A DNA stretch of 64,000 nucleotides, from positions 1 through 64,000 of the forward strand of contig MLAK01000587.1 of the NCBI GenBank assembly GCA_001839685.1, in the 5' to 3' direction. The notes under the pieces are model-generated. The model searched no databases. It had not been told where the DNA came from and saw only the letters and a program-made list of their open reading frames with translations. A program made the translations under genes and the position numbers. Source of the DNA: Tritrichomonas foetus. Lineage: Eukaryota; Parabasalia; Tritrichomonadida; Tritrichomonadidae. Within the stretch, counting starts at the first letter, position 1, and the number at the start of each line of letters is the position of its first letter. This document shows positions 8,364-33,607 of the stretch, piece by piece.

Positions 8364-9350
8364 ATGATTGATCAACATTCAATCATAACTTTTCTGCAGC
8401 TTGAAGGAAAAAGGGGCAAAGAAATATATGAAGAAATGAAGAGTGTCTTGAAAGAAAAATGTTTGTCTCAAAGACAAATCTACCGAGTCATGGCAGAACT
8501 GAACAGAAGTCAAAACACACAGCCTGTGAAAAAAGAGAAAAAGTGCCAAAGTTATGATATTCTTGACTGGAAAATTTTAGATGTTTTAACCGAATTTCCA
8601 CATTCATCGTGTCGATATATTGCTAATGTTTTAGNTCGTTTAACATCAAAATTAATGTATAAACATGTGCATCTTCGATGGGTGCCACATATTCTAACAG
8701 AAAATCAAAAGGCCAATAGAGTTTTATTGGCAAAAAAACTTCTTAAAATTTTGAATGCAGAACAAAAAACTAATTTCACCTTTTTAATAACAGGAGATGA
8801 GTCTTGGTTTTATTCCAAGACTGATTTCAATACACAATGGATTCCTGAAAACTCAGTAATCCCAACTATTCAAAATCCAGGGTTTCAGATCACTAAATTT
8901 ATGGTGACTGTATTTTGGAACCCTCATGGGATAATTCATATTGATGTTTTGCCGCCAAATGAAAAGTTTAATGCTGCATATTATATTACAGCCATTATGT
9001 CAAAAATTGTTGAGTTTAAAAACTCGAATAATTATAAAAAATTATTTGTTCATTATGACAATGCAAAGCCTCATGTGGCAAAAATTGTCAAAAAATATAT
9101 AAATGAAAACTCACTAGAATCAGTTCCACATCCGGCATATTCACCTGATTTGGCGCCTAGCGACTTTTTTTTATTTGGAACTATTAAAGAAAAAGTTAAA
9201 GGAATTGTTTTTGAATCACCAAGCCATTTGATTCAAACAATAGTCCAAATTTTCAATGAAATTCCATCGGAAACTTTGTTTTCAGTTTTTGCAGAATGGC
9301 AAAATAGACTGAAAAAAGTTATTGATGCCAATGGAGACTACATATTTTGA
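8364..9350 (+). CDS. Mariner transposase (D,D34D)
   Basis: Cut-and-paste transposase (328 codons including one unread residue). N-terminal helix-turn-helix region (about 1-95), linker motif RWVPHILTENQK, then the catalytic core: first Asp in ITGDESWF, second in HYDNAKPH, third in LAPSDFFLFG. Exactly 34 residues separate the second and third Asp, which is diagnostic for mariner. No stop or frameshift is seen. The base n at 8635 falls in codon 91, in IANVL-x-RLTSK, where mariner proteins normally have the recognition helix of the second HTH; roughly 8-10 residues seem to be absent there. This may be an assembly collapse rather than a biological deletion. ATG at 8364. Confidence 0.93.
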   Translation: MIDQHSIITFLQLEGKRGKEIYEEMKSVLKEKCLSQRQIYRVMAELNRSQNTQPVKKEKKCQSYDILDWKILDVLTEFPHSSCRYIANVLXRLTSKLMYKHVHLRWVPHILTENQKANRVLLAKKLLKILNAEQKTNFTFLITGDESWFYSKTDFNTQWIPENSVIPTIQNPGFQITKFMVTVFWNPHGIIHIDVLPPNEKFNAAYYITAIMSKIVEFKNSNNYKKLFVHYDNAKPHVAKIVKKYINENSLESVPHPAYSPDLAPSDFFLFGTIKEKVKGIVFESPSHLIQTIVQIFNEIPSETLFSVFAEWQNRLKKVIDANGDYIF

Positions 9351-22890: not shown

Positions 22891-24168
22891 TTAAAAGTCA
22901 TCAAAATCAGAATCAAAATTATTATCATCTTCATCATCATTATCCAAATTATTCTCATGAATGTTAATTGGATTGAAATCTATCGGATATCGTAATATTG
23001 TGCCGATTCCCCCAAGTCCTTTTATGAACTGAGCACCCTCTGGTGATGAATCACCAACAATGTGCAAGATTATTCCAAATTTTTGGTAGTTAGAGATAAC
23101 CCAATCAATCAATTGCTCATTATCAGGCGATTCATAATTTCCATTGGGGAAATATTCAACTTCTTCGTTTTCATTTACATATCTAATGCAGTTTAGATGA
23201 TCGGAAATGAAAAGTTCTTTGATTGCGTTCATGTTCCATGCCATCATAACTTCTTTGACACCAAAAGCGCAATTTCCACCTTTACCTGCATAATCAAATA
23301 ACGATTCAAGTAACTGCTGCTCTTTGATGAGTTCAACATTTTGGAGAAAACTTCTCGACATTTTAATAGCTTCATAGAATCCTTGCTCACCATCATAAGC
23401 AACATCAAAAATTGCCATCACAAGACCTTTCAATTTATCGCCCAATAGTTCACTTGATTGAAGTTCATTCTTTAATTGTGCACAGCCAGCCAAGATAATA
23501 CCAGTGATATTGGGAGTTCCATTTGAAATGAAGCACCTTTTTGCTGATTCAGAAACTCGCACAATTAAATTATGTCTTGTCTCATCTCTTATTCTTTGAA
23601 AACGAAGAGCTGATTGACCTCCTTTTTTCTGTGATTTATTAATTTCAACATGAAATGCATCCAAAATCTTTGATGTGTCACCCATGACATAACCCAAAAG
23701 ACAACGCTGACCACCAACTATTATATATCCATACTTTTCATGTTTGGTAGACATTGAAGCCAGAATATCAACATGGAATCGATGATCACAAACATATAAT
23801 GGTGACTTTAATGGTTTTGGTGGTTCAAAATCAATGACAACTTTCTTTTCTTTTCCATTTGTTGAGGTTATTCCAGAGAATAGACAAATCCCATTGGCAG
23901 GAACTTTCAAGATGCTGCTCAATTTTTGAATAGCCGCTGTTATCGCGATCTATACACTTTGACGATTGATTTTATCCTTGATATTAGCAGCAGCACCATA
24001 TTCTCGTGTGAGCTTTTGTTTCATCTGAGACAATTGAGCTGAACTTCCAGGTATCATTACAGTAAGTAAAGATGTTCCATCTCCTTCTGCAATTTCAAGC
24101 ATTTTAATTGTTTGCTTGAATTTGAATAAGTCAATTTGATCGGTGCAATCGATCGGAATACTTCTCAT
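22891..24168 (-). CDS. eRF1: Release factor eRF1 with in-frame TAG (stop at codon 73)
   Basis: Peptide-chain release factor 1, which reads stop codons in the ribosomal A site. Read straight through, the gene codes 425 residues, near the human 437. Domain 1 has GDGTSLLTVMIP and AAANIKDKINRQSV; the universal NIKS stop-recognition motif is NIKD here (62-65). YVCDHRF (125-131) is the conserved YxCxxxF motif, GGQSALRFQRIR (GGQ 183-185) is the hydrolysis motif, and domain 3 follows. Codon 73 (23950-23952 on the + strand, CTA) is TAG. The same frame continues IAITAAIQKL and VPANGICLFSG, matching eRF1 on both sides, so neither a frameshift nor an intron explains it. The downstream part has no ATG until about residue 138. 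Options: readthrough-regulated gene, inactive copy, or sequence error. Confidence 0.88.
23950..23952 (-). other. In-frame TAG codon inside eRF1
   Basis: The codon reads TAG on the minus strand, between GTA (Val) and ATC (Ile). In human eRF1 the equivalent residue is Leu72. Other genes here end at TAG (HOOK-like, CS/Sel1, BEACH), so TAG is generally a stop in this genome. Confidence 0.9.
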
Positions 24169-25205
24169 TTAGAAATAATGAAGTGAAACTTCCAGAATAA
24201 ACAAAAAACCTAATCACGCCAAATATGGTGAAAAAATTGCCATCTAGAAAATTTTATTCACAAATTTGAGAAAATATTGAAAATTTCTATTACCTGATCT
24301 AACTCTGACAGAGTTAGTTGATGACATTTCAAAATCCACCAAATATAAAAATATAGTATGCATTTGATCTTATCTATTGGAAGATGGACTAATGAATTCG
24401 TAAAATTGAAAATTGTAAAATTTATATTGTCTTTTTTGGACCAGGAAAGATTTCTTTCGGATGAGAATATGAAACCCAGCATTTCTGTTTAATGTTATCG
24501 ATCTCTAACTCTTGTTTCAAATTCATAATGCTTAAACACTGATTGAACATAAAATGTGTTAAGAGCAAAGCTTATAAATAATCAAGTTATTATCAGAATG
24601 ATCATTGACAACTTTTTTATTAATATACAAAATGACATGAAATTGATTTAGAATCTTTAACTTGTTCATTATAGTTTTTAACTCTTCTTCTTAACTTTCT
24701 TCGATTTCTTTATTGTATATAAACAATCATGATTTTGATATCATCATGAATTGTTCACCACACTTTTTGTTCAAATTCCAAAATTCACAGAGGAAAAAGT
24801 ATCATTTTAATGTTGAGAAAATAAATAATAGCAATGACATAGAATCTCCCTTTTAAAAAAGTCATGAGGGGTTTCTCCTTAATGAAAGGAAATCACATAC
24901 AATTGTCCAGAAATAATAGAATAGCATCCAACAATAGAGGGAAAATGGAAATGTCCAGAAATTGTAAAAATGTTGATCATATCCAGACAAAAAGTCATGA
25001 TGACATGTTAATATCTTTTTTCCAACACACAAAGTTCTTTCTATTTCCGGACAATTCATCATGAATCTTTTATTTCCTGACAAGGTCCATTTCTTGATAT
25101 TATTTTCTTCTTTCCAGCGAATATTCTATATAATAACATGTTAAATTAAATAAATTGGATGAGAAAGCAAAAATATGATTCACAATTGCCTTTAATATGT
25201 CATAC
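24169..25205. other. Intergenic region, about 1 kb
   Basis: AT-rich. Short open frames on both strands (24258-24482, 24862-25083) show no domain and poor composition. TCCAGA words recur at about 24905, 24953 and 24981. No gene, tRNA or snRNA was recognised. Confidence 0.45.
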
Positions 25206-26068: not shown

Positions 26069-29000
26069 CTAAAAGTGAGCGAAATTGAGATAATCCATTC
26101 CTTGTGAACAATTTGGACAAAATTCAGCACCGTCATGTCTACAAGCATCACAAATGGGTGTTTGACATTGTACACAAAGTGCTGTTCGAGGGTTTTCACA
26201 AAAAGCGCATTTATAAACATTCGATCTTGGATCAAGTGAATCGATTTCAGTTATTTTTGAAAATCCTTTTTCATCAATTGATATAAAGCGTGGTACAACC
26301 GATGATGATGAAATTGAAATAATTTTGTGACGATGTATGGTTGTTTTTCTTTCAATAACAAAAAACTTATAATTTTCTGTGCTAACTGCTAGAATGGTGA
26401 TACTTCCATCAGTATGACAAACAATTGTCATTTGTTTATCAAATGCAAAATCAAATGAAACTGTTGTCATACAAGTGTTTTCAGAAGGAAGAGTATAGCT
26501 CCTTAGTTCAACAGCATTTAAAGAATATTGAATAAGTTTATCTGTGGATAATACTGATAAAATACCATCAAAGTTTGAAAAAGAAATTTGAATTGGTATA
26601 AAATCAATAAAAATAGTTCTATGGCGCATTTGAGTTGCAAAATTCCAAATTACAATAGAATCTTCATACACTGATGCACATAAATAGTCTTGTGAAAGAA
26701 TAGATGACATTGTGCATCTAGAGTCACCTGTAAATGATGAGGTTTTATTGAGATCGCTTGGTTTTCCATGCTCATAAAGTATTTGAAAAACATCAACACG
26801 ACCAAAAATGTAAGAAATAGCTAAAAAGAAACCATCATCACTTATTGAGAAATTACTGATGTATGCAAAATCAGTCATATACTTAATAAATACAGATTTT
26901 GTATTAGTGATATCAAATAACGAAATTGATTCATTTGATAAATCATAATCAAAATAAAAGTTCGTATTACAACATTTCATCGGAATTAAACATGCTTTTA
27001 GTGGAACAGCTGCAACTTTATTTTCACCAAGCCAACAGCCCCGAAATCGATTAATTTGATTAGGATTTACAATTGAAGCATCTTTGGTATCATAAATAAA
27101 GTCTTTCCATAAACGAACACCTCTAAACTGGCGGCTTGGATGTGATTTCTGGAACAATTGAACCGGACACTGACCAAAGTTCAGAACTTGTGATCGAAAG
27201 GCATCTTCATCCATTTCTACATCTTCTTTCCTACAAGAATGATACGATGATGGATGAAATACATTTTTTGCTTCAATTGCGGCTTCTCCAGTTTGCTTAT
27301 AACCAAATATCAGGTCAATCCAGGCTTGAATATTTTGTGATTCATTCAGCAATCTCATCAAGTTTTCAACAAAGAAGTTTGGACTGTCATTGGACCAATC
27401 AGGAAGTGCAACATTATCTGAAACACTTAGTGTGAGTTTGGATATATTTGTTAATGCTTCTGGTGTCTGATAAAGTGCAGGAATCAGTTCTTTCAAATCG
27501 GATGGATTAGTTACAGCAGCAGAAATATAGGCATCATTCATAGAAACAAAGAGTCTCTGTGAATCATCCCATCCACCATTCAAATCCCATTGGAAAAATG
27601 TAAATGGAGGAGTTCTCATAAGTAACCAGAAAACTGCACCAGGAAGTGAATAGTGAAATCCATAGTAATATTTAGGATCACTTAATTCATAGGTTTGATC
27701 AAAATGTTTGGCTCTATTTTCTCCTAATTGACCCATTGGTAAATTAAGATCACGCAAGTTTAAATTAGAAGGATTAGCAATCCATGGAACGACAGGATAT
27801 TGGGATAAATCTGCAAATGATCTACCACTGAATGCATTCAAAAGTAGTAAATATTCATAATTACTTATTGCATTATTGAGCCATAAAATTTGTGCTGATT
27901 GAACCGATTGTACAGTGAAGAGAAGATGGCTTGGTGGGAAGGAACGCCTTAAAATTTTTTTGCTTAGAAGCTTTGAAGCATTTGTCAAATCATTATGTGA
28001 TGCAAAAATAATAATAAGGTCTGAAGCACTAATTGTTGAAATACACATTCCAATTTTTCGATGAATATAATAATGACGTTGCAATCGAACTATTTTTTCT
28101 AATCGTGTAATAATTACAACATGTCCACAAAATAGTGTTGATTGTGAAAATTCACCTAATGCGACAGATTCAGTAAATGGAAGAAAAGCAACTGGATTTT
28201 GTGGATGTGAAATAAGTTGTAATGCACCTTTTGCAAGAACAACTAAAATTAAAGCACTATTAGTGAAAAAAAGAACACTTGGAAGTGGATGAATGAAATA
28301 GAAGAATTTCACATCAAATGGCTGAGAAAATGGACCAAATTCTTTAAAAGTTATTTCAAATAAGTGTAATAATGATGAAGGTCCTTGTTCGATTACAGCT
28401 GAATATTCAAATGGTGAATAAAATGGTTTATCTGAACCTTGATTAAAATGGCACCATTCGGGTGAACAATTCATTAATCCACGCTGTTCAATTGCTACTA
28501 TACGTTGCTTGTGAATGAAATCTTCGTCTTTTTCACTTGAACCAGGTTTAAAGACAGATTTTGAAACTTTTGTATGAGGATCAATATCTTTTATTTCGAA
28601 TGGTGATGGTGCTAATGCTCGTGACTGTCTAACAGGGAATGATAACGGCGATAAATGATATGATGACGGTTTAAAATCACTTTGTTGCATATCTTTCTTC
28701 CTTGCAAGCAAAGAAAATTCAAAAATTGAACGTTCTTTTAGACGTTGTTTCGAATTTATATTTAGGATTACCAAATTTTGCTCTACTGAAAAGTTGGCAC
28801 TTCTATATATTCTTGCAAGAAGTTCATTTTTAGCAGCAGCTGAATAAGCTTTTTGTTTTGCTTCGATTATATGATCCATACGGGTAATTCTTGCTTCGTT
28901 TTCTGCAGTTGAGTCACTTGTTGATGATTTTGTTTTAAATAAAATCCATTCAGCCTGAATTTCGGTTGGTGAATATGAACTAACAAGTGTATTATCAATA

Positions 29001-32000
29001 ATTTGCATGAATGCAGTCATACATTGAATTCTTTCTGGTGCATTTCCTCCTCTTGGTCGTGTAACATGAAGCCATAATGTACTAAACTTGTTATCATTAA
29101 AAACAACGCTTTTAAAAACAGTCGCCTGATATTTAATTAAGAGTTCAAATAAAGGATGTGAGTCACCTTCAGGAATGAAACAAAATGCATTTAAAAGAAT
29201 ATCTTTATGCATTCGAATGCATTTATCATCAGCTAGAAATAAATCATAATCACGACTTGAAGAGCCTGATAATACTTCAAAAAGTGATGATAATAAAGTT
29301 AAATAATTATCAGAGAAAATGCCAACATTTGAAGCATGATGTACTGATGGATATACCGCTTTTAAATGATTTAATTGGGGATTTTTAGTAATTCTTCTCA
29401 AAGTTTCTAAAATCATTTCTTGAGCAATTAACTTAGCATATGAATTATACATTAATGCTGTTCCATTGGTTATTTCAAGGAGAAAAGAAGAAATGGATTC
29501 AGATTCAAATAAAATCGATACAAAAAAATCTAACAATCGAGAAGATTTCATTAAAGAAAGTAAAGGTGAACAATCTTGAATATTATCAGGGAAATATAAA
29601 ATAGAATCAGATGAAATCGAGTTTGCATCATAACAAAGATTATCAGGAATAATTGGTTGATATAATGTTGATTGTGTAACTAAACAAGAAATTGCTTTGA
29701 TTTCAGCTTTTGATGGTGGCTGAAGTGAAAAGGAACTCCAAACTTTACTTACTCGTTCACTATTTGGATCAGTTGAATATGAATTTGGACAAATTCCAAG
29801 AAAGAATAAAGAATGAAGAACAGGCATGCATTGTTGTTGTGTGAAATGAATATATTGAGCTTTATCAAGTGAAAGCATAATATGAATCACCTTTTCTAGA
29901 AGATTATTTTGAAATTTCAAATTATCTTCACTATTAATTTCTTTAATTCCTTTTGAACTTGGTTCATTGTTTTTTTCATTTTTATTCGAAAAATGATTTG
30001 GATTTAGGTCATTATCATTATTATTATGGTTGCTGTTGTTATCGGTAGTTTCACTTTCGGTTTGTTTCTGATTTTCTGTTGTTTCAATAAGTGAATAGGC
30101 GCATAATGATGTTAATGAATTGAGCATCTCAAGAACAGTACTGAGGAAAACAGGGCGTTTGATTTGGAAGTTTTTAATAAATCTAGGCTGTGGGGGATTT
30201 CCAGATAAAATAGAAAGGGCAGATTTCCATATATTAGGATTTCCAGAGAAATAAGAAAACACATAATTAAGGAGCGGTGATGGAACGACATATTTTGGAT
30301 TCCTATATGAATAAATTGCGATGAGTTCTGATAAACATACAGCTCTATCATCAAGATATAACATCATAAAGGTAAGAATATCTTTCATTTGATATAATTC
30401 AATTTCTGGAATTTGTTTGGCAGATGAAACAAAAACAGTAAGAAGACGATGTTGAATTACTGATGATTTTATTGGCTCTCTAAGTAAATCAACAATGTCA
30501 AAAGTCCAATCACCTAATGAAATAATCGAATTAAAAAATGCTCGTAATTTAGACTCCGTTGGTTCGACATGGACAACTTTAGAAATCAGTGGAACAAATG
30601 CAAGTTTTAATTTCTCGTCTATTCCACTGCGAATAGCAGTCATTAAAGCATTTGTTAAGCCTAATTTATCTAAATATTTCCAATCAATTATTGGGTTTTC
30701 TAAAATCTGATTAAAAAGTTGTTTAATTGATAAAATCGAGAAAACAAAGTATATCTCAACATCGGATATCATTTGAAAGATTGCTTTTGTAAAATCTTTT
30801 GATGAACAATAAAGCGGCACGTATTCGCAAACTATACGATTTAATTCTTCATCTATTAAATCTTTTTTTCTATAAAAGGATAAGATCATTCTACTCCAAA
30901 ATTTCTTGAATTTTGCATGATGAATTGACTGAATTTTCATTAAAGCTGAAAACACCGAATAAAATTCTTCTCGTGATGATACATCTTCAAGTAAACCAAA
31001 AAGTTTTTCAATTTGAATCGATGATCTAAAATATGAAGCAAATCCAAGATAGTTCACGAAAACAGCATGAGGACTTTTATAAGTATGGCTTGCATGCGCA
31101 GATGAATCAGAAGGTCCGGAATTATAAATAGACTCAATTTGTTCATTTGTCATCATGGATTCATTAATAATAATGTTTTTAGAAAGATAAAATGGCGATT
31201 GAAGAGGGTTTTTTTCATCACCAAATGTAATAATCGATGGTGTCGATTGTAAGTCTACTTTTAAAAAACCAGAGTGAACTTTATCTACAATAATCTCACA
31301 TTTATAAGTAATATTTCGCCTCATATGAAAGATTATCACTACATGATGCCAATGATTTTCTCGAGCAGAAATATTTAATTTGTCTCTCGACGTAGTAATA
31401 ATAATATTATCCTCTGATAGCTCCAAAGAAGTAATAGAACAGTTAACTAAGGATAGAGCAGTATTGGTTTTATATGGAATTCGGTACCAAAATGAAAGAG
31501 ATGAAAACTGTTGCTTAAAAGTAATGAACGCAGGTTTTCCAAAAGGAATAAATTCATATAAAGAAAATTGTGATTGCTCTATATCAATGTATTTTGATAA
31601 AAGGCTTTGGTTATTATTTAATAATGATTTTATACTATTAGGATTAATATATCTATTAACAATTTCCGAAATGTGAGGTATTTTATAAATCGGAATACCT
31701 CGCTTCAAACATGCAGGAATTCCATATTTGCTTGCAAGATATAAATTATATGGTGAAGTAATATTAAAATCATCAAGAAAAGGTAACAGTGAAGGAATAT
31801 GAAGCAAATATTGATTATTTGAAATTCCTGTAGCAAATTTCGATAATTCGTCTTTGGGAATCTCAAATAATTTCGAATCAACAGGTTGATTATTGATCCA
31901 ATTGTCAATTTCTTGATGTGGTAAAAACATGGAAAAAGATGCTAAAAGTGTCATCACATTCATGCTAGATGATGTCTCGCCAGTTAAATATTCATCAAGA

Positions 32001-33607
32001 CGTGAAAAACCATTATTTTCGATAAAATAATCAAAAGACTCTTGATGTATTTTAGCTTCGTTTGAAATTATATGTAAAACACATGGAATTCGAATATTTA
32101 TTAATAAAAGCTTCATTATTTTCGATGAAAAATGATGATCAAAAATCTTTGTTAAGAAATCCTCAAAAAAATCAATTTCTTGTAAAGATTGAGAAACTGA
32201 AAGTAGTTTCTTTAAAAGAGGAAATTTAGTTTCTTGGTAAGAATTGGAAATATAAATACAAGTTAAAATTGGTAAAATTGATTTATGCTTTTCATAAAAC
32301 GATGCAACTTCTTTCGTTTGTGGGTTGAATAAAAATGTTGCAAAGAATTTTTCTTTCACTAATAAATCTGCTGTTAATTTTCCAGATTCAATTAAACCAT
32401 TTAAAATCGTTAAATATGAATCAACTGGAATATCTTCATCTTCTGGAAAAGCAATTAACTCTAAAATTGCGTGTAATATTTCATCTATGTTCATTGATCC
32501 ATTTTTTAAAAAACTTGAAATAATACCAGCTAAAGTTTCTAAACTTTGTTTGTTTAAATATGGAGGACGCCTAATAAAAACAGAGAGTGGTGTAACACTT
32601 GTAATTTTTTGATAAGTGTCATTTAAATTATTCGTTTGAACGGAAAGAAGTTGAATTAAAGAAGATCTCAATTCTACATCAATTTCATCATTTATAAAAA
32701 GATCATGAATACTTGATAGTACAATTTTATTGATATTTGTTTCAATTAAGATGATTTCGTAACATTCATGCGCAACCTCAGGACAATTGTGTGCGAAAAG
32801 ACTGTTAAAGAGATCAAATCCACCAAATTCTTGAAATTTATCAATCATTCGTTTGCATGATGGCAAAAATGCAATTATATAATAAGAAATAAAAAGACAT
32901 GAATTTTTAAGAGAATAAGAAACAGAAATTTGAGGTGTAAGAAGGTCAATAAATATCTTTAAATTTTGGATTTTGGATTTCATTTTTGTCCGAAAAAGAT
33001 CCATCGGAACAGTTTTAAATAATAAACGAAGCAAAAGCTCCTGATGTGAATCAATATTCTCTTGAATGAAAAAAGAAGAAAAAATCAAAGAAAATCCATC
33101 ATTATTAAGAAATTCTGGAAAAAAAGGAGTCGATTTAAAAAGTGCCACAAGAAAAGATTTTGATGTTTCAAAAAATGATGGATTCTTTTTGATCACTTGA
33201 ATAACAGAAGCAAATAATGGAAAAAATAATTCCGAATATGGAATCGATCCAAAAAGGCCTGAAATAAATGTCAGTGAATTGAAAAGTACTTCTGATAAAT
33301 TTGACTTATCGTGAAGAACAGTAACTCCCAGTTCTGCGCACGCGTGGCTATATTGGTGAAAAATGAGCTTAATTTCTTCGTCTTCGAGATGTTCGGCTGT
33401 AATGCATTTAAAAGTTGTAGCGAATTGGCTGACTAATCTTGAAAATAAAAGCACGCACGTGGTGTCTTTCGATACTGTTGAAAAAGCGGCAAGATTTTGT
33501 GAAAACATATTGATCAGAAACTTTTCTTCTTGCGGAATGGGCGGAATTTTCTTCGTTTCTTGCTTCTGGACCGTCTTGCGAAAAAAATTGCCGATATTCT
33601 GAAGCAT
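26069..33607 (-). CDS. Giant BEACH-WD40 protein
   Basis: A single 2512-aa open frame. The N-terminal 680 residues are helical, armadillo-like. A concanavalin-A-like lectin fold follows (about 691-800: LSFWYRIPYKT, WHHVVIIFHM), as in LRBA/neurobeachin. A long alpha-solenoid carries an N/D-rich insert near 1175-1220. A PH-BEACH-like segment begins near 1720. The BEACH domain is at about 1895-2130 (WLNNAISNYEYLLLLNAFSG, PVVPWIANP, PMGQLGENR, YGFHYS, AWIDLIFGYKQTGEAAIEAK), then WD40-type repeats (about 2190-2460) and a C-terminal CxxC zinc-finger motif (about 2464-2502). BEACH proteins control vesicle fusion, lysosome size and phagocytosis. ATG at 33607, stop TAG. No intron is seen despite the length. 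Confidence 0.92.
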   Translation of the reverse strand: MLQNIGNFFRKTVQKQETKKIPPIPQEEKFLINMFSQNLAAFSTVSKDTTCVLLFSRLVSQFATTFKCITAEHLEDEEIKLIFHQYSHACAELGVTVLHDKSNLSEVLFNSLTFISGLFGSIPYSELFFPLFASVIQVIKKNPSFFETSKSFLVALFKSTPFFPEFLNNDGFSLIFSSFFIQENIDSHQELLLRLLFKTVPMDLFRTKMKSKIQNLKIFIDLLTPQISVSYSLKNSCLFISYYIIAFLPSCKRMIDKFQEFGGFDLFNSLFAHNCPEVAHECYEIILIETNINKIVLSSIHDLFINDEIDVELRSSLIQLLSVQTNNLNDTYQKITSVTPLSVFIRRPPYLNKQSLETLAGIISSFLKNGSMNIDEILHAILELIAFPEDEDIPVDSYLTILNGLIESGKLTADLLVKEKFFATFLFNPQTKEVASFYEKHKSILPILTCIYISNSYQETKFPLLKKLLSVSQSLQEIDFFEDFLTKIFDHHFSSKIMKLLLINIRIPCVLHIISNEAKIHQESFDYFIENNGFSRLDEYLTGETSSSMNVMTLLASFSMFLPHQEIDNWINNQPVDSKLFEIPKDELSKFATGISNNQYLLHIPSLLPFLDDFNITSPYNLYLASKYGIPACLKRGIPIYKIPHISEIVNRYINPNSIKSLLNNNQSLLSKYIDIEQSQFSLYEFIPFGKPAFITFKQQFSSLSFWYRIPYKTNTALSLVNCSITSLELSEDNIIITTSRDKLNISARENHWHHVVIIFHMRRNITYKCEIIVDKVHSGFLKVDLQSTPSIITFGDEKNPLQSPFYLSKNIIINESMMTNEQIESIYNSGPSDSSAHASHTYKSPHAVFVNYLGFASYFRSSIQIEKLFGLLEDVSSREEFYSVFSALMKIQSIHHAKFKKFWSRMILSFYRKKDLIDEELNRIVCEYVPLYCSSKDFTKAIFQMISDVEIYFVFSILSIKQLFNQILENPIIDWKYLDKLGLTNALMTAIRSGIDEKLKLAFVPLISKVVHVEPTESKLRAFFNSIISLGDWTFDIVDLLREPIKSSVIQHRLLTVFVSSAKQIPEIELYQMKDILTFMMLYLDDRAVCLSELIAIYSYRNPKYVVPSPLLNYVFSYFSGNPNIWKSALSILSGNPPQPRFIKNFQIKRPVFLSTVLEMLNSLTSLCAYSLIETTENQKQTESETTDNNSNHNNNDNDLNPNHFSNKNEKNNEPSSKGIKEINSEDNLKFQNNLLEKVIHIMLSLDKAQYIHFTQQQCMPVLHSLFFLGICPNSYSTDPNSERVSKVWSSFSLQPPSKAEIKAISCLVTQSTLYQPIIPDNLCYDANSISSDSILYFPDNIQDCSPLLSLMKSSRLLDFFVSILFESESISSFLLEITNGTALMYNSYAKLIAQEMILETLRRITKNPQLNHLKAVYPSVHHASNVGIFSDNYLTLLSSLFEVLSGSSSRDYDLFLADDKCIRMHKDILLNAFCFIPEGDSHPLFELLIKYQATVFKSVVFNDNKFSTLWLHVTRPRGGNAPERIQCMTAFMQIIDNTLVSSYSPTEIQAEWILFKTKSSTSDSTAENEARITRMDHIIEAKQKAYSAAAKNELLARIYRSANFSVEQNLVILNINSKQRLKERSIFEFSLLARKKDMQQSDFKPSSYHLSPLSFPVRQSRALAPSPFEIKDIDPHTKVSKSVFKPGSSEKDEDFIHKQRIVAIEQRGLMNCSPEWCHFNQGSDKPFYSPFEYSAVIEQGPSSLLHLFEITFKEFGPFSQPFDVKFFYFIHPLPSVLFFTNSALILVVLAKGALQLISHPQNPVAFLPFTESVALGEFSQSTLFCGHVVIITRLEKIVRLQRHYYIHRKIGMCISTISASDLIIIFASHNDLTNASKLLSKKILRRSFPPSHLLFTVQSVQSAQILWLNNAISNYEYLLLLNAFSGRSFADLSQYPVVPWIANPSNLNLRDLNLPMGQLGENRAKHFDQTYELSDPKYYYGFHYSLPGAVFWLLMRTPPFTFFQWDLNGGWDDSQRLFVSMNDAYISAAVTNPSDLKELIPALYQTPEALTNISKLTLSVSDNVALPDWSNDSPNFFVENLMRLLNESQNIQAWIDLIFGYKQTGEAAIEAKNVFHPSSYHSCRKEDVEMDEDAFRSQVLNFGQCPVQLFQKSHPSRQFRGVRLWKDFIYDTKDASIVNPNQINRFRGCWLGENKVAAVPLKACLIPMKCCNTNFYFDYDLSNESISLFDITNTKSVFIKYMTDFAYISNFSISDDGFFLAISYIFGRVDVFQILYEHGKPSDLNKTSSFTGDSRCTMSSILSQDYLCASVYEDSIVIWNFATQMRHRTIFIDFIPIQISFSNFDGILSVLSTDKLIQYSLNAVELRSYTLPSENTCMTTVSFDFAFDKQMTIVCHTDGSITILAVSTENYKFFVIERKTTIHRHKIISISSSSVVPRFISIDEKGFSKITEIDSLDPRSNVYKCAFCENPRTALCVQCQTPICDACRHDGAEFCPNCSQGMDYLNFAHF

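Follow-up and report, generated by a model that had tools for sequence, protein, structure and literature searches.

Results

An eRF1 gene with a single in-frame TAG

The window analysed here, a stretch of 64,000 nucleotides of Tritrichomonas foetus DNA, carries on its minus strand an eRF1 gene, termed eRF1-B, whose features are listed in Table 1. The first-pass annotation had described an eRF1 of residues 1 to 425 with a TAG at codon 73, and translation of 24168-22891 agreed with it. It had also held that homology runs on in the same frame on both sides of the TAG, which was borne out: when the codon was read across, eRF1_1, eRF1_2, and eRF1_3 were all found above the Pfam cut-offs and in order, and human eRF1 (PDB 1dt9) gave a single, unbroken alignment through the site over residues 9-404 (E = 2.2e-95). 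In this alignment, the TAG falls eight residues past Ser64 of the human NIKS motif. Codons 74-138 are 65 codons without an in-frame ATG, close to the length first estimated, and the four ATGs located between the TAG and Met139 are in another frame. The GC contents at the three codon positions were alike before and after the TAG, namely 0.44/0.36/0.26 for codons 1-72 and 0.45/0.38/0.26 for codons 74-138. An intron of ordinary length at codon 73 was considered and rejected, as the homology is continuous.

Table 1 Positions of the eRF1-B gene and its features in the window.
Feature	Position	Strand	Evidence
eRF1-B gene, 425 codons, one internal TAG, terminal TAA at 22891-22893	22891..24168	-	translation, domain and structure matches
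Internal TAG, codon 73, at the human Leu72 position, context GTA TAG ATC	23950..23952	-	translation and alignment
First ORF, 72 residues and TAG, with GTS element and NIKD loop	23950..24168	-	translation; database entry P0122
NIKD in place of NIKS in the stop-recognition loop, codons 62-65	23974..23985	-	translation and alignment
Distal part, codons 74-425, same frame, no further stop	22894..23949	-	translation
YxCxxxF, second stop-recognition motif, codons 125-131, past the stop and ahead of any in-frame ATG	23776..23796	-	alignment
Codon 139, first in-frame ATG after the stop	23752..23754	-	translation and alignment
GGQ, peptide-release motif, codons 183-185	23614..23622	-	translation and alignment
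Two adjoining TCAYW matches, at 18 and 13 bases upstream of the ATG	24177..24186	-	motif scan

The NIKS and YxCxxxF motifs have roles in stop recognition and GGQ in peptide release (PMC3521657). By its three eRF1 domains, GGQ, and YxCxxxF, eRF1-B is a member of the eRF1 family, and release activity is predicted for it. The loop itself does not read NIKS: NIKD stands there both in eRF1-B and in the six database ORFs described below. As NIKD also occurs in a Tetrahymena eRF1, this departure narrows the specificity of the protein rather than its family membership.

The initiator consensus of trichomonads is TCAYW. Since a match to it lay within 40 bases of the start in 8 of the 19 window ORFs examined, the two matches ahead of eRF1-B are weak evidence for its start codon. 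Genes for a protein kinase, Sec23/24, a histone deacetylase, MutS, and Vps54 surround eRF1-B in the window, and these kinds of neighbours indicate that its setting is the nuclear genome. An ORF for a mariner-like transposase (Transposase_1 and DDE_3) was also found at window positions 8364-9350.

An intact paralog elsewhere in the genome

A second, uninterrupted eRF1 locus, the search for which had been suggested in the first-pass annotation, was found in the genome (63.7 Mb, 1064 contigs, of which C197 is the window). One of the two IMPDH genes in this genome encodes a protein that agrees at all 503 aligned residues with PDB 1ak5, the IMPDH of T. foetus. This gene, termed eRF1-A, is located at C393:51041-52321, has no internal stop, and is 49% identical to eRF1-B. 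Thus, the interrupted gene is an eRF1 paralog and not the only eRF1 of the cell, which has an intact canonical one and does not depend on eRF1-B for all termination. The annotation would have set its reading aside for an intact eRF1 elsewhere together with silence of this copy and other disruptions accumulating in it; the intact gene exists, but other disruptions in eRF1-B do not.

Because eRF1-A belongs to a different clade of the tree, this phylogeny makes it a paralog of older origin rather than a copy from which eRF1-B recently arose. The loop of eRF1-A reads NIKN, and NIKN in place of NIKS was seen in all four parabasalid-type eRF1-A proteins (T. foetus, P0007, P0008, and P0010); T. foetus uses all three stops. 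Domain 3 is shorter in eRF1-B than in eRF1-A, with an alignment gap of more than 10 residues at approximately codons 330-350. A search of the genome with eRF1 domain 3 indicated four places: eRF1-A, eRF1-B, one 406-aa frame, and one 288-aa frame, the last with its match at C135:100761-101000.

The position of the stop is shared by relatives

The read-through product was searched against 5.8 billion proteins, and the best 120 of the 139 matches were examined. The database entry for the distal part of the window's own gene, P0002, starts after the TAG site. Four other matches listed had more than 60% identity (P0003-P0006, 335-348 aa), and all of them begin past this site. No uninterrupted full-length ortholog of eRF1-B occurred among the best 120 of 139 matches, within the limits of a search in which a full-length protein could have been listed. 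P0009, which has the same start as P0002-P0004, and P0068, which starts without Met three residues past the site, were not counted as showing the stop.

Since gene callers split genes at stops, the 72 residues before the TAG were used as a separate query. Besides the window's own ORF, six short ORFs (P0123-P0128, 71-102 aa) were identified, all of which end exactly in NIKDKINRQSV, the position of the window TAG. The recurrence of this end at the identical residue in six further ORFs places the TAG at codon 73 beyond chance. P0123 and P0124 are one residue apart, so the six ORFs represent five distinct sequences; these are 69-88% identical to one another and 61-69% identical to T. foetus over the aligned residues, and they could include paralogs of one species. 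The query gave 15 matches in total, and eight of these (P0129-P0136, 39-52% identical), which end elsewhere and whose sequences mark them as other eRF1- or aRF1-like fragments, were left out of the stop count. The longest contig behind P0126 and that behind P0006 have the same value, 1817, and the two entries therefore probably derive from a single gene, one half each. From these sequences, we infer that the stop of the relatives is likewise UAG and that their two halves share one frame. The entries listed for close relatives hold either the pre-stop or the post-stop part only, and genes of this kind are thus hidden by gene callers.

Viral and prokaryote genome collections were also scanned for DNA of relatives, and no relative was found in them. 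The same scans yielded one Woesearchaeota aRF1, 40% identical, that reads past the TAG site without a stop.

Conservation on both sides of the stop

In the tree, the eRF1-B sequences (P0001, P0003-P0006, P0009, and P0068) formed one clade with support of 100/100, apart from the four full-length eRF1-A proteins; P0068 had a long branch and an odd composition. The GTS element and NIKD before the stop are kept in 7/7 ORFs, and both YxCxxxF and GGQ in all seven eRF1-B sequences. Over residues 91-138, which are located past the TAG but ahead of the first in-frame ATG, T. foetus shares 58-62% identity with P0003-P0006. This equals the conservation of domain 3 (57-58%) and is below that of domain 2 (81-84%). 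As YxCxxxF lies past the stop and is conserved throughout, selection appears to act on the protein in its full length. The NIKS position before the TAG and YxCxxxF after it both serve stop recognition, which makes a full-length product the simplest reading of the sequences.

Residue 139 is Met in six of the seven eRF1-B sequences and Leu in 4/4 eRF1-A proteins. A shorter form of eRF1-B without the codon-reading domain could start there.

UAG as a terminator in T. foetus

Stop codon usage was counted in 93 ORFs of the retrieved T. foetus DNA that did not overlap and had 200 codons or more; they were defined mechanically (ATG start) as unverified genes and did not include the window itself (L001). 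TAA ended 60 of them, TGA 24, and TAG 9, and UAG is thus a regular stop in this genome. No internal stop was present in 18/18 CCT, 2/2 IMPDH, and 6/6 EF-Tu domain 3 matches in the genome. Reassignment of UAG as a general explanation was therefore rejected. Among the HSP70 matches, 59 of 64 were also without an internal stop, and the other five had one to five stops, the worst (C659) having 1 TGA, 2 TAG, and 2 TAA. Such multiple stops of mixed kinds are what decay looks like in the T. foetus genome.

The pattern of a tRNA with anticodon CUA matched 29 genome sites, compared with 41 for the reversed control. ARAGORN, run on all 29 sites, identified tRNAs at three of them, all Arg-TCT and none with anticodon CUA; intron-bearing and class II tRNAs are outside this pattern. 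Of 3420 candidates for the Rfam tRNA model, 63 were scored.

A backup stop in the same frame followed within four codons at 5/9 of the TAG ends and 19/84 of the TAA and TGA ends (p = 0.046, post hoc and uncorrected), and UAG may be a weak stop in T. foetus. In the window, the 2512-aa ORF at 26069-33607 has TAG as its terminator and a TAA two codons downstream.

Discussion

Proposed readthrough of codon 73 as a feedback device

Here, we propose that eRF1-B is a functional, divergent Tritrichomonas paralog that is kept interrupted by the UAG at codon 73, and that this codon is read through under negative feedback. We assign this reading a probability of about 0.7; the readthrough itself, the insertion of an amino acid, and the regulatory loop are deduced from sequence. 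Most ribosomes would stop at codon 73 and release a 72-residue fragment, and in a fraction of them a near-cognate tRNA would place an amino acid at the UAG to give full-length eRF1-B. Release factor is required for termination at this UAG, and the amount of eRF1-B would therefore track termination capacity, rising as the capacity falls and dropping as it recovers. By analogy with the systems discussed below, eRF1-B is probably under such feedback. Readthrough of the UAG, as first suggested, is supported by five other distinct sequences that stop at this residue, with coding conserved on both sides. Two marks of a readthrough gene are present, namely a conserved stop position (six ORFs, five of them distinct) and coding past the stop without an alternative start. 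The known leaky contexts (stop-CARYYA, or a stop followed by C) are absent at codon 73, where the message reads UAG AUC, and UAG-A also occurs at four of the nine ordinary TAG ends. No RNA structure was found around the stop, the four folds giving z values from -0.67 to 0.75, which were not better than those of shuffles.

A more tentative proposal, which we hold at somewhat below even odds, is that eRF1-B, which bears NIKD in its loop, has become specialised either for UAG, an inferred specificity, or for a subset of stops. The UAG at codon 73 would then be a sensor and the counterpart of the RF2 loop, beside an eRF1-A that bears NIKN.

Alternative explanations

The simpler alternative in the first-pass annotation, a pseudogene or a base-calling error, is strongly disfavoured by the five other distinct sequences, which stop at the identical residue. 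The intact eRF1 elsewhere in the genome speaks for it; nevertheless, eRF1-B carries a single stop over 425 codons with the frame unbroken and keeps its motifs before and after the TAG, whereas some of the broken HSP70 matches have several mixed stops. Given the shared stop position and the lack of an uninterrupted ortholog among the matches listed, we regard sequencing error and a decaying pseudogene as very unlikely, and as the least probable of the explanations weighed here. We consider it unlikely that the gene yields split products, in which case no full-length protein would be made and two products would each function, the peptide of 72 residues and a distal protein translated separately from Met139 or from a non-AUG codon. 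A start at Met139 would produce an eRF1 without the codon-reading domain; the preference for Met at this residue in eRF1-B and its location near the boundary of domains 1 and 2 (residue 145 is the first of Pfam domain 2) are consistent with this. On the other hand, residues 91-138 with their YxCxxxF would lie upstream of such a start and are nevertheless conserved, the four ATGs of another frame precede Met139, and no initiator-like TCAYW is present within 40 bases before it.

A change at the RNA level would explain why the stop is kept in DNA alongside a full-length protein under selection. The UAG could be edited, or a few bases could be removed so that no stop is met, GTATAG starting with GT and ending with AG. 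The residue-by-residue homology after the stop leaves no room for an ordinary intron there in T. foetus, and we know of no precedent for a six-base intron; this explanation seems distinctly unlikely. The last alternative is a dedicated suppressor tRNA, or a lineage-wide partial reassignment, by which UAG would be sense at chosen sites. One conserved, sense-like UAG is what it predicts, and the excess of backup stops after TAG ends, post hoc and uncorrected as it is, would fit a leaky UAG. Against it stand the CCT and IMPDH genes without any stop inside, the 9/93 ORFs that end in TAG, and the tRNA(CUA)-pattern sites, which gave only Arg-TCT tRNAs in a search that misses intron-bearing and class II tRNAs. 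We find it scarcely likely.

Comparison with known systems

The closest counterpart is the class-I release factor of giant viruses, Mimivirus R726 and Megavirus mg280, which has internal stops (Jeudy et al. 2012, PMC3521657). According to that report, the stops are conserved at 47% protein identity, and readthrough was inferred partly from this conservation and then demonstrated for Mimivirus in E. coli; Mimivirus cDNA and RNA-seq were sequenced as a test for editing of these analogous stops. Like eRF1-B, the viral gene is of the eRF1 type and combines an internal stop conserved in relatives with a variant stop-recognition motif. However, it is viral and has one readthrough stop (UGA-C) and one frameshift stop, whereas eRF1-B is a cellular nuclear gene with one UAG, a single frame, and a UAG-A context. 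The genes of Marseillevirus and Lausannevirus, the Acanthamoeba paralog, and other eukaryotic class-I factors are described in the same report as free of internal stops, and the internal-stop feedback loop had been thought exclusive to bacterial factors until the giant viruses (PMC3521657). In bacterial RF2 (prfB), as would be the case for eRF1-B, the factor is made only when ribosomes pass an early stop of its own message, with feedback on its level (PMC3521657). RF2 belongs to an unrelated protein family and relies on a +1 frameshift at UGA, unlike eRF1-B, in which the frame is not changed.

Feedback through release factor messages has also been described in eukaryotes. For viable yeast sup45 nonsense mutants, a feedback-regulated readthrough of the stop in their own frame was proposed (PMC8701342); those stops arose by mutation in the laboratory, in the sole eRF1 gene, whereas that of eRF1-B was fixed by evolution in a second copy. 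In the plant eRF1 readthrough/NMD circuit, readthrough on its own mRNA sets the eRF1 level (Nyiko et al. 2017, via PMC11062462). That circuit acts at the regular terminal stop of the gene and results in decay of the mRNA, while the stop of eRF1-B is internal. Ciliate eRF1s with an altered NIKS, including the NIKD of Tetrahymena eRF1-1, are reported to keep YxCxxxF and GGQ, and some ciliate species are reported to have second eRF1s and some to have altered stop codes (PMC2613156). Unlike some of these ciliates, T. foetus ends genes with TAA, TGA, and TAG.

In the open-licence literature, searched by titles and abstract openings, we found no report of an internal stop in an eRF1 of parabasalids or other cellular organisms. 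Control of a release factor at an internal stop is thus known, and what would be new is its occurrence in a eukaryotic cell, at a single UAG and without a change of frame. If the proposed readthrough is true, control of the RF2 type also arose in cells with eRF1, and codon 73 is a natural site of readthrough that lacks the leaky motifs known so far. T. foetus, which uses all three stops, would also offer two eRF1s whose recognition loops differ, making a division of labour directly testable. The end of eRF1-A (C393; L002:1486-2811, minus strand) reads GTA TAG C and is followed in frame by a TAA four codons further downstream. A stop followed by C has been reported as leaky, and the end of eRF1-A might also be tuned.
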